Positions 8,138 through 61,201 of a stretch of 64,000 bases of DNA are shown piece by piece. The DNA is from Alphaproteobacteria bacterium. GTDB lineage: Bacteria > Pseudomonadota > Alphaproteobacteria > Rs-D84. Below the pieces are notes generated by a model. It saw nothing but the letters and a program-made list of their open reading frames with translations, had not been told where the DNA came from and did no database searches. The translations under genes were made by a program, and so were the position numbers. The stretch covers positions 1-64,000 of the forward strand of contig WRKW01000006.1 in assembly GCA_009777955.1 (NCBI GenBank), in the 5' to 3' direction. Each line of letters opens with the position of its first letter. Position 1 is the stretch's first letter.

Positions 8138-8306
8138 GTGTCATTGCGAGTCACGCCGTCAGGCGGACGAAGCAATCTTTTATAACGCTTCGTGTCATTG
8201 CGAGTGGTCGAAGACCGCGAAGCAATCTTTTCCAACAGGGGAAGTATAATAATTCCATTGCCTGAAAAGATTGCTTCGTCCGCCTGACGGCGTGACTCGC
8301 AATGAC
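8138..8306. repeat. REP-like hairpin array, cluster 1 (two forward units, spacer, one inverted unit)
   Basis: GTGTCATTGCGAG...GAAGCAATCTTTT units; same family at 14.0, 29.0 and 50.8 kb. Confidence 0.9.
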
Positions 8307-8323
8307 ATTAAACCGCAATGACA

Positions 8324-8821
8324 TTAAAGGCCGAGATCCGCAAACAGCGCCGACCGGAAGTTGGAAACGGTCTGGGCGGCGTACGCGCAATCGTACGCGC
8401 AGCGATACGCGCAAGAGATCGCGCCGAGGTCGCCCCGGAAAACCCAAGCCGACGAAGCGACACTAAACCCAGGAATGCTTGTCAGCTTACACCAACAGTT
8501 GCTTCCGCTGTCGGCAACAGGGTTACCGATATTGGCATAGCCTCCGCTTGTGCTTGAACACAAACTTGTTCCACTGAATTCTGATACATTACTTCCAGTA
8601 CAGCTTCCTACTTTCCAATCGCCAAGGGATAGGTTGGTGCAATCTTGATCCCAACTTAAACCACCAGTGCCACTAGCAGGACATTGATTGACACTACTAC
8701 AACTCGTCGGACTTATGGGTCTTGCCATACACGCAACAGCGGCAATAGACCCATGCAATGGGATTATCGTTAATACAGCAAGGATGCTTGTTATCTTTAT
8801 AGTTTTGTTAAATGTATTCAT
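8324..8821 (-). CDS. Secreted Cys-rich CWCK-family protein, copy 1
   Basis: MNTFNKTIKITSILAVLTIIPLHGSIAAVAC signal peptide; strongly similar to 14345-14836 and 51216-51716; conserved promoter and RBS. Confidence 0.88.
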   Translation of the reverse strand: MNTFNKTIKITSILAVLTIIPLHGSIAAVACMARPISPTSCSSVNQCPASGTGGLSWDQDCTNLSLGDWKVGSCTGSNVSEFSGTSLCSSTSGGYANIGNPVADSGSNCWCKLTSIPGFSVASSAWVFRGDLGAISCAYRCAYDCAYAAQTVSNFRSALFADLGL

Positions 8822-8896
8822 GATACTCTCTCCTTTGGGTATATTATACCATATACCATGACAAAGGTCAATTTGTATTTAGTCATGTAAAGTGAA
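8822..8896 (-). promoter_or_regulatory. Conserved CWCK-cassette promoter
   Basis: -10 TATAAT (8843-8848 complement), -35 TTGACC (8866-8871 complement), 17 nt spacing; 6 nt shorter 5' leader than other copies. Confidence 0.85.
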
Positions 8897-8929
8897 CAAA
8901 AACACAATTAAAAAACACGTACAAAAATA

Positions 8930-14000: not shown

Positions 14001-14329
14001 GTGTCATTGCGAGTGGCCAAAGACCGCGAAGCAATCTTTTCCGGCATTCCGTGTCATTGCGAGTGGTCAAAGACCACGAAGCAATCTTTTCAAATATTTT
14101 GTGTCATTGCGAGTGGTCAAAGACCACGAAGCAATCTTTTCAGATATTTTGTGTCATTGCGAGTGGTCGAAGACCACGAAGCAATCTTTTCAGGCAAGGG
14201 AATTATTATACTTCCCCTGTCGGAAACGATTGCTTCGTCCGCCTGACGGCGTGACTCGCAATGACACGAAATGTCGGAAAAGATTGCTTCGTCCGTCACC
14301 GCAAGCGGTGACGCGACTCGCAATGACAC
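14001..14329. repeat. REP-like hairpin array, cluster 2 (four forward units at exact 50 bp period, spacer, two inverted units)
   Basis: Units start at 14001, 14051, 14101, 14151. Confidence 0.92.
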
Positions 14330-14344
14330 CAGACTGCAATGACA

Positions 14345-14836
14345 TTAAAGGCCGAGACCCGCAAACAGCGCCGACCGGAAGACGGAATGGAGCTGGGCGC
14401 GGATCGCGCAATCGCCCGCGCAGTCATACGCGCAATAGGACGGATCGCCGTGGCCGTACGCGAAAACCCAAGCCGACGAAGCGACACTAAACCCAGGAAT
14501 GCTTGTAAGCTTACACCAACAGTTACTGCCGCTGTCGGCAACAGGATTACCAAAGTTAGGGTAGCTTCCAGTAGTATTAGAGCATAGGCTCGTGCCACTG
14601 AACTCTGATACATTACTTCCAGTACAGCTTCCTACTCTCCAATTCCCAAGGGATAGATTATTACAATCACCATCAATACCAAGGGCGGAACAATAGGTCA
14701 TGCCATTACTTGGACAACTGCTCGGGCTATTAGGTTTCGGTACGCACGCCACAGCGGCAATAGACCCATGTAATGGGATTATCGTTAATACAGCAAGGAT
14801 GCTTGTTAGCTTTATTGTTTTGTTAAATGTATTCAT
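14345..14836 (-). CDS. Secreted Cys-rich CWCK-family protein, copy 2
   Basis: Same signal peptide and constant blocks as copies 1 and 4. Confidence 0.88.
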   Translation of the reverse strand: MNTFNKTIKLTSILAVLTIIPLHGSIAAVACVPKPNSPSSCPSNGMTYCSALGIDGDCNNLSLGNWRVGSCTGSNVSEFSGTSLCSNTTGSYPNFGNPVADSGSNCWCKLTSIPGFSVASSAWVFAYGHGDPSYCAYDCAGDCAIRAQLHSVFRSALFAGLGL

Positions 14837-14837
14837 G

Positions 14838-14912
14838 ATACTCTCTCCTTTGGGTATATTTATATTATACCATATTCCATGACAAAGGTCAATTTGTATT
14901 TAGTCATGTAAA
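14838..14912 (-). promoter_or_regulatory. Conserved CWCK-cassette promoter
   Basis: TATAAT (14864-14869 complement), TTGACC (14887-14892 complement), 17 nt spacing. Confidence 0.85.
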
Positions 14913-28987: not shown

Positions 28988-29168
28988 GTGTCATTGCGAG
29001 TGGTCAAAGACCGCGAAGCAATCTTTTCCGGGCATTCCGTGTCATTGCGAGTCACGCCGTCAGGCGGACGAAGCAATCTTTACAGACGATGGAATTCTTA
29101 TACTTTCCCTTTTTGGAAAAGATTGCTTCGTCCGTCACCGCAAGCGGTGACGCGACTCGCAATGACAC
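28988..29168. repeat. REP-like hairpin array, cluster 3 (two forward units, spacer, one inverted unit)
   Basis: GTGTCATTGCGAG...GAAGCAATC units. Confidence 0.9.
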
Positions 29169-29201
29169 CAGACCACAATGACATCAGACCGCCATAACAT
29201 C

Positions 29202-29430
29202 AAAGGCCGAGAGCCGCAAACAGCGCCGACCGGAAGAAGGAATTGCTCAGGGCGATGCCCACGCAAGAACCCGCGCAGTAATACGCGCAACCGGACGGAT
29301 CGCCGTAGTCGACCCCACTGAAAACCCAAGCCAACGAAGCGAAACTAAACCCGGGAATACTTGTTAGCTTACACCAACAGTTACTGCCACCATCTACAAC
29401 TGGGTTGCCGATATTGGCATAGCTTCCGCA
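29202..29430 (-). pseudogene. 5'-truncated CWCK-family gene remnant, copy 3
   Basis: Complement encodes GSYANIGNPVVDGGSNCWCKLTSIPGFSFASLAWVFSGVDYGDPSGCAYYCAGSCVGIALSNSFFRSALFAALGL*; N-terminal half and promoter absent. Confidence 0.8.
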
Positions 29431-29574
29431 CCGCGCACGATACGAATATGTATTCGCGGTCTTTGCCCGCGAATGGCTTATACATTGGATTCCCGCCTTA
29501 CGCAGGAATGATGGCCACTTTGTTGCCGTTATAATTCTTTATATGTTTGCAACCAGATTATGTTACGCCCGCTT

Positions 29575-50812: not shown

Positions 50813-51183
50813 GTGTCATTGCGAGTCGCGTCATCGCATTAGTGTCATTGCGAGTGGTCGAAGACCGCGAAGCAATCTTTTCCAAACATTCCGTGTCATT
50901 GCGAGTCGCGGCACCGCTTGCTGTGACGGACGAAGCAATCTTTTCCAAACATTCCGTGTCATTGCGAGTGGTCAAAGACCGCGAAGCAATCTCTCCAAAC
51001 ATTCCGTGTCATTGCGAGTCGCAGCACCGCAAGCAGTGACGGACGAAGCAATCTTTTCCAGCATTTCGTGTCATTGCGAGTGGTCGAAGACCGCGAAGCA
51101 ATCTTTTTCAAGCAGGGAAGTATAATAATTCCATTACCTGAAAAGATTGCTTCGTCCGCCTGACGGCGTGACTCGCAATGACA
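50813..51183. repeat. REP-like hairpin array, cluster 4 (half unit, five forward units, spacer, one inverted unit)
   Basis: Alternating hairpin types; same outer arms ATTGCGA/GAAGCAAT. Confidence 0.92.
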
Positions 51184-51215: not shown

Positions 51216-51716
51216 TCAAAGGCCGAGACCCGCAAACAGCGCCGACCGGAAGTCGTCACCGGAATCGGACTGGGCGAAGTTCGCGCAATCGTACGCGCAG
51301 CGATACGCGCAATTGGACGGAACGCTGCCGTCGAGCACGAAAACCCAAGCCGACGAAGCGACACTAAACCCAGGAATGCTTGTTAGCTTACACCAACAGT
51401 ATCTACCGCTGTCGGCAACAGGGTTACCAAAGTTAAGGTATGTTCCGCTTGTGCTTGAACACAGGCTTGCGCCACTGAATTCTGATACATTACTTCCGGT
51501 ACAGTTTGTTAATTTCCAATCCCCAAGGGATAGGTTATTACAATCATTACTATAACCACCCGTACCAAGGGCGGAACAATAGGTGTAACTACCGCAACCT
51601 GTTGGGCTATTAGGTTTCGGCACACACGCAACAGCGGCAACAGAATCATGTAATGGGATTATCGTTAATACTGCAAGGATGCTTGTTAGCTTTATTGTTT
51701 TGTTAAATGTATTCAT
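51216..51716 (-). CDS. Secreted Cys-rich CWCK-family protein, copy 4
   Basis: MNTFNKTIKLTSILAVLTIIPLHDSVAAVACVPKPNSP; constant blocks shared with copies 1 and 2. Confidence 0.88.
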   Translation of the reverse strand: MNTFNKTIKLTSILAVLTIIPLHDSVAAVACVPKPNSPTGCGSYTYCSALGTGGYSNDCNNLSLGDWKLTNCTGSNVSEFSGASLCSSTSGTYLNFGNPVADSGRYCWCKLTSIPGFSVASSAWVFVLDGSVPSNCAYRCAYDCANFAQSDSGDDFRSALFAGLGL

Positions 51717-60610: not shown

Positions 60611-61201
60611 ATGAAAAAGTTTTTAGTGACTTGTTTTGTGATGTGTATGCTGTCAATTCCAGGCCACGCAGTGTTTCGATGTGTGGACAATAGAAATCCT
60701 GGTAATTGCACTAATATAGGATCCAATCTTTGGAGAGCGCATGGTTGTGCAACACCAGGAGCGTCGGAATTTTTTGGAACTTTTCGGTGTTCAGATACAC
60801 CGGGAACTATGGGTACAAAAGGAACCCCAAGTAATACAGGGGGGGCACATTGTTGGTGCAACCTTACAAGAACTCCTAATGGCGGATGGGTATATGCGGA
60901 TGTTTCTGCTGGAACCGCTCCCGCCAATCTGGTAGCGCCTGCACCGCCTGCTTCCGCCGGGAGTTTTGAAAATTTACCACCAAATGAAGAGTGTAGTACG
61001 CTAGTGAATACCGCTAATTCACGATTAGCTGCCGCCAGAACAGAAATAGACAAAATAGAGCCTGCCATTGCTACGATAAATGGTGCAGATACACTGATCA
61101 AGGCACAAGCTGCTGAAATAAATTGTCTGAAAAAATGTTCAGAGGCCTGTGCAAATGCTGCCAGAAACGCGGGTAGTTTTCGTAACGGATTATGGCAATA
61201 A
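60611..61201 (+). CDS. Secreted protein, diverged CWC-family member with helical insert
   Basis: Signal peptide; SEFFGTFRCSDT...GGAHCWCNLTRTPNGGWVYADV...CLKKCSEACANAARNAGSFRNGLWQ. Confidence 0.75.
   Translation: MKKFLVTCFVMCMLSIPGHAVFRCVDNRNPGNCTNIGSNLWRAHGCATPGASEFFGTFRCSDTPGTMGTKGTPSNTGGAHCWCNLTRTPNGGWVYADVSAGTAPANLVAPAPPASAGSFENLPPNEECSTLVNTANSRLAAARTEIDKIEPAIATINGADTLIKAQAAEINCLKKCSEACANAARNAGSFRNGLWQ

Follow-up and report, generated by a model that had tools for sequence, protein, structure and literature searches.

A dispersed REPIN-like palindromic repeat with a core found in both orientations, often behind a family of DGR target genes

Why should the same short spacer lie in opposite directions between hairpin arms at different places on one contig? 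The question is raised by four clusters of inverted repeats in the window examined here, which comprises 64,000 nucleotides (positions 1 to 64,000 of contig C6, GenBank WRKW01000006.1) of an alphaproteobacterial genome. The preliminary description attributed the opposite directions of the spacer, here called the core, to site-specific or recombinational inversion, and speculated that the turning of a TATAAT hexamer within it might switch transcription. The genome is a draft of 1.02 Mb in 14 contigs, ∼98.6% complete, and the analyses were made on searched loci. The sample is this one draft genome with one representative per species, and the flank comparisons reported here are comparisons between paralogues.

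Re-reading of the window bears out the positions and sequences given for the four clusters as well as the direction of each core, which is + (orientation B) in clusters 1 and 4 and − (orientation A) in clusters 2 and 3. The cluster 1 array (8140–8306) consists of forward units at 8140–8177 and 8194–8227, a 41-nt core at 8228–8268 on the + strand in which the 17-mer GGAAGTATAATAATTCC occupies 8240–8256, and one reverse unit at 8269–8306. In the cluster 2 array (14003–14327), four forward units and two reverse units enclose a core at 14187–14227 on the − strand, opposite in orientation to that of cluster 1, with the 17-mer at 14199–14215 on the − strand. Cluster 3 (28990–29166) has two forward units, a core at 29079–29120 in the same − orientation as cluster 2, and one reverse unit; its core is more diverged, with two mismatches in the 17-mer, a left arm reading TTTACAG, and the variant TATAAG. 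Cluster 4 (50844–51182) has five recognised forward units, together with a degenerate one at 50814, followed by a core at 51104–51144 on the + strand, oriented as in cluster 1, and one reverse unit. When ≤3 mismatches are allowed on both strands, the window contains seven matches to the 17-mer where 0.32 would be expected, a count reached in 0 of 100 shuffles. Of the 41 positions between GAAGCAATC and GATTGCTTC, the cluster 1 core agrees with that of cluster 2 at 38 when inverted and at 29 when uninverted. The latter value is raised by the quasi-palindromic character of the core, the direction of which consequently depends on ∼10 asymmetric positions but can still be assigned at every copy.

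The core was first described as lying between inverted hairpin arms. Inverted arms are indeed present, but they exceed the 10-nt hairpin ends and consist of full units of ∼34–46 nt, which are tandem to the left of the core and inverted to its right. Each unit runs from GTCATTGCGAG through a small hairpin to GAAGCAATC, the small hairpin being of one of four kinds (GGTCnnAGACC, CGCCGTCAGGCG, CACCGCTTGCGGTG or CACAAAGTGG). The array as a whole is convergent, with left units pointing right and right units pointing left, one to six units on each side, and exactly one core per array, usually separated from the units by 12–13 nt on either side. The mirror-image arms are closely matched over ∼30 nt beside the core and over more across whole units. 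GGAA/TTCC pairs are present in all 24 of the 24 core copies of 41 nt, and the core with its nearest arms is predicted to form a strong hairpin (z of −4.6 to −6.3 when folded as DNA; −5.6 to −6.5 for the RNA folds of clusters 1 and 2). Among the 101 units recognised in the fetched loci, only four have their internal small hairpin reversed; this rarity is suggestive, fitting a dependence of inversion on long mirror arms, in a control that differs from the core in loop length as well as in arm length. A CRISPR array is ruled out by the anatomy, the "spacer" sequence being identical each time and present once per array. An Rfam search of the window matched no known RNA family, and a full-text literature search for the unit GTCATTGCGAG returned unrelated papers only, apparently listing primers.

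The occurrence of two core orientations extends well beyond the four clusters, to 29 cores genome-wide on nine of the 14 contigs. Fourteen of these lie 3′ of intact or partial members of one gene family, nine in orientation A and five in orientation B; a fifteenth (C4:41926, orientation B) stands beside a stub of a gene of this family, and three further genes are followed by truncated B cores that have one junction in common. Orientations downstream of the gene family are about equal (9 A and 6 B, plus the 3 truncated B), and the remaining 14 cores have locations other than 3′ of an intact or stub family gene. Each of the core variants ATAATAATT, ATAAGAATT and ATAAAAATT, as well as the GTGTAA group, occurs in both orientations relative to the gene. 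On a weakly supported gene tree calculated from gene bodies (354 columns, variable region excluded), orientation requires six changes compared with a mean of 7.2 after shuffling, and 121 of 500 shuffles are as low; core orientation is unclustered on the gene tree. Three arrays on one contig (C8:277, C8:13301 and C8:21389) share one broken form of the core, with another hairpin (ACGGCTCTCGTAAGAGAGCCGT) after it, which suggests that gene and array were duplicated jointly.

Whether the core turns alone can be judged from arrays with common flanks. C4:41926 and C8:31905, the array pair with the closest match on both sides (flanks 87% and 92%), carry their cores in opposite directions; these cores agree at 34 of 41 positions when inverted and at 30 of 41 directly. 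Through the units on both sides, and on into the variable gene's 3′ end, the alignment is unbroken; the core alone is reversed, its arms and flanks being unchanged. Confinement of the flip between the arms, as originally claimed from the window, is accordingly observed in at least one pair, consisting of paralogous loci and not of strains; the two cores also differ by ∼7 substitutions and do not represent a single clean flip. In the inverted duplicate pair C2:98811 and C2:120451, core and flank direction are kept together. The tandem set at C12:15011–15385 and the array at C8:32665 resemble by eye the products of crossover between neighbouring arrays, a process that could also yield opposite cores and in this respect counts against passive inversion.

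The reading that we consider probable is that the clusters are copies of a REPIN-like dispersed palindromic repeat with a passively inverting core, the orientation of which is near-random and neutral. The quasi-palindromic core of 41 nt would constitute the loop of this extragenic repeat, and its mirror-image arms would allow the polymerase to switch templates and re-insert the core reversed while the surroundings stay unchanged. Alternatively, the core might be inverted by homologous recombination between the arms, or by gene conversion from any of the ∼29 other copies paired either way round; since the copies are dispersed and this numerous, gene conversion in either alignment would give the same outcome as arm-based inversion. 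Orientation would consequently be close to random and selectively neutral. We infer both this neutrality and the choice of molecular routes (template switching, RecA recombination or gene conversion), and in-place inversion and exchange between dispersed copies both appear compatible with the present sequence data. Of the two types of inversion originally proposed, recombinational inversion between the arms is the better reading, given the flank-matched pair with opposite cores, the variants in both directions and the lack of a link to the gene tree, whereas a site-specific process is unsupported, there being no recombinase match on C6. Related events have been described elsewhere: template switching between short inverted repeats homogenises arms and inverts spacers (PMC8604942), bacterial rRNA provides examples of inversions limited to the loop (PMC8794818), and in the plastid trnH-psbA spacer inversions associated with palindromes are found within plant species (PMC2903610).

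An old insertion or duplication of the whole element in two orientations, with no in-place inversion and with symmetric arms hiding its direction, is an unlikely explanation that nonetheless has several observations on its side. Repeats of this type are mobile elsewhere, as in the case of REPINs (PMC3116915), the C2:98811 and C2:120451 pair retains core and flank direction jointly, and the one junction in the three truncated C8 copies indicates that gene and array can be copied together. Such an origin is, however, at odds with C4:41926 and C8:31905, which have opposite cores within common flanks that include gene-side 3′ sequence, with the presence of every core variant both ways relative to the gene, and with the absence of orientation clustering on the gene tree. 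Inversion is preferred to a fixed direction of insertion because the core is found in both directions with its flanks kept, its variants run both ways, and orientation has no link to the tree.

Genes of a large DGR target family precede many of the hairpins. In the window, the cluster 1 array lies 3′ of a gene for a 165-aa secreted-type protein with a DGR variable region at its C terminus (8324–8821, − strand). The window also contains a 163-aa paralogue (14345–14836, − strand) and a 166-aa paralogue (51216–51716, − strand), each with a DGR variable region, and a 3′ fragment of a paralogue that has kept the variable region and lost its 5′ end (29200–29439, − strand). Promoter-like TTGACC-17-TATAAT sequences belong to the 165-aa gene (8843–8871, − strand), where the sequence forms part of an upstream block common to paralogues, and to the 163-aa paralogue (14864–14892, − strand). 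The upstream block (TTTACATGACTAAATACAAATTGACC...TATAAT..., for example window 8822–8897) is sharply bounded and common to paralogues at unrelated sites, and in variable gene copies that have no array similarity stops ∼10 nt past the stop codon; the variable gene resembles a duplicated cassette whose ends are defined. The family has ∼26 members or fragments in the genome (three window genes and ∼23 other loci) and matched nothing in Pfam. A divergent relative of the family (E 5.8e-9 over its middle part) is located within a larger ORF at window 60704–61195.

Comparison of 24 variable regions with the template repeat reveals differences at 61% of A sites, against 8.1% of C, 8.0% of G and 4.5% of T sites. 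These adenine-biased differences are the DGR signature, and the neighbouring genes are DGR targets. From three copies, the DGR template was predicted to have AAY codons at variable positions, and a search with this pattern gave one exact match, at C5:69838–69873. Three template repeats are present, at C5:69787–69930, at C13:152–277, and in truncated form at C3:43369 (locus C3:43350–43590), and two of the three are close to contig ends. Following the truncated C3 template are 51 codons similar to the C-terminal end of a DGR RT from a relative (33% over 42 residues, E 7e-5 in a single comparison). A search of the ∼98.6% complete assembly for an intact DGR-type RT found none. The sole RT found in the genome, of 461 aa at C2:200350, is of the UG13b type (candidate defence, DRT) and was rejected as the DGR RT, its best model being RT_UG13b; a search for RVT_1 in four genomes of the same genus gave no match. 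The DGR RT may have been lost or may lie in an assembly gap. Many genomes of the same family and the same order carry DGR-type RTs with the motif IGNxxSQW, matches to the variable protein family number up to ∼19 per relative genome, and multi-target DGRs seem common in the lineage.

The proximity of arrays and variable genes raises the idea, very doubtful in our estimation, that the arrays are a structural element for DGR retrohoming downstream of the variable region, with core orientation an incidental or tuned feature of the cruciform. Homing in BPP-1 requires a hairpin or cruciform close 3′ of the variable region (PMC3240598), and arrays are found within roughly 34–150 nt behind 17 of the ∼25 variable genes that have a visible 3′ flank. 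The other ∼8 variable genes are without an array, and for this reason no retrohoming role is assigned to the arrays here. Also difficult to accommodate are the 14 cores located away from intact or stub variable genes, the occurrence of the arms in other phyla in unrelated settings, the failure to find an intact DGR RT, and the form of BPP-type hairpins, which have 7–10 bp and a GRNA loop, unlike these arrays. That the arrays and the direction of their cores alter the rewriting or exchange of neighbouring DGR variable genes strikes us as highly improbable; if true, a core flip would change how a surface or secreted protein family of ∼26 members diversifies.

The transcriptional proposal depends on the hexamer of the core and on a source of recombinase. 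Among the 29 copies the hexamer reads TATAAT in 13, TATAAG in 9, TATAAA in 3 and TGTAAN in 4, its last T being variable, and a −35-paired promoter was sought at the cores of clusters 1 and 2 and not found. PF00589 and PF00239 have no match on contig C6, and hence no dedicated recombinase is close by. Pfam recombinases, with types assigned by reading their ORFs, are an XerC-like protein of 306 aa, an XerD-like protein of 309 aa, a 452-aa integrase and a 501-aa serine recombinase, all on other contigs, and one further sub-cutoff match is also off the window's contig. In a site-specific switch, a recombinase acting on the arms would point a TATAAT promoter at the neighbouring gene or away from it. 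Such a switch would draw on the inverted arms around an asymmetric AT-rich core with TATAAT and on the serine and tyrosine recombinases of the genome, but is scarcely credible: the hexamer is unconserved, clusters 1 and 2 show no promoter-like pair at their cores, the arrays lie 3′ of genes equipped with promoters of their own, the window's contig has no tyrosine- or serine-recombinase match, and the sites are dispersed and number 29. The suggestion that inversion switches transcription is not upheld.

The occurrence of both core orientations across 29 sites is real, and nothing found suggests a genetic switch; accidental turning, by copying or recombination via the mirror-image arms, is most likely. 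The repeat is a clean natural experiment in spacer inversion: its ∼41-nt core, in 29 copies within one genome, lies both ways in arrays whose own small hairpins rarely flip. It also cautions against taking inverted segments between hairpin arms for promoter switches. Of greater interest, arguably, is the DGR family next to the arrays, in which targets and templates are numerous and a search for an intact RT was negative.

The exact core is absent from the 59 relatives searched, and a longer core pattern was not found in GTDB r220 or IMG/VR. A homologous hairpin with core GGGAAGTATAAAATTCCC is present in G016, a genome of the same taxonomic family but another genus; JAIRZE010000047.1 ("Rickettsiales bacterium Gsp477_bin73") contains this stretch at coordinates identical to those of one G016 match, and the two records probably represent the same genome. 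Hairpins that combine the same arm ends with other cores are present in Omnitrophota, a planctomycete, Ignavibacteria and Pedobacter. The arms thus appear to be a widespread repeat type, of which the 29-copy expansion with a GGAAGTATAATAATTCC-type core is apparently peculiar to this species among those searched. Within the genome, the same arm ends also enclose a different core, GGGTTTTATATTTTCCC, in a hairpin of a second kind that is present as two tandem copies at C1:205489–205735.

In phase-variable invertible promoters of the fimS type, inverted repeats flank a segment that is seen in both directions. The arrays described here differ from such switches in having no adjacent recombinase and no promoter in the segment, in lying downstream of genes, and in their many dispersed copies. 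The associated gene family can be compared with the DGRs of Treponema denticola, which have 2–7 targets per isolate, some isolates having targets but no RT (PMC4891356). Variable regions are C-terminal and differ from the template specifically at adenines in both systems, and the core RT seems lost here; unlike in T. denticola, ∼26 variable genes are present in ∼1 Mb, with three templates, one of them fused to the tail of a deleted RT. As in the template-switch inversions of other systems (PMC8604942, PMC8794818, and trnH-psbA, PMC2903610), a spacer between short inverted repeats is found both ways with its flanks unchanged. Those inversions were compared between strains at one locus, whereas the comparison here is across ∼29 paralogous copies in one genome, with longer arms made of whole units and a core of 41 nt.

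The nearest described class is that of the REPINs and REP palindromes of Pseudomonas and E. coli (PMC3116915). The present repeat has inverted palindromic units around a spacer with a predicted hairpin, and it is extragenic, dispersed and present in many copies. A RAYT-driven REPIN was rejected, as a search for the RAYT (Y1) transposase, PF01797, gave no match in this genome, which is ∼98.6% complete with a gap possible, and matches in 5 of 14 control genomes; the element is for this reason called REPIN-like and not a REPIN. Like REPINs (PMC3116915), it is built of short extragenic palindromic units, forms an inverted pair around a spacer with a hairpin fold, and is dispersed, sometimes in tandem clusters; unlike them, it has one conserved core between one to six units per side, and this core is seen in both directions.
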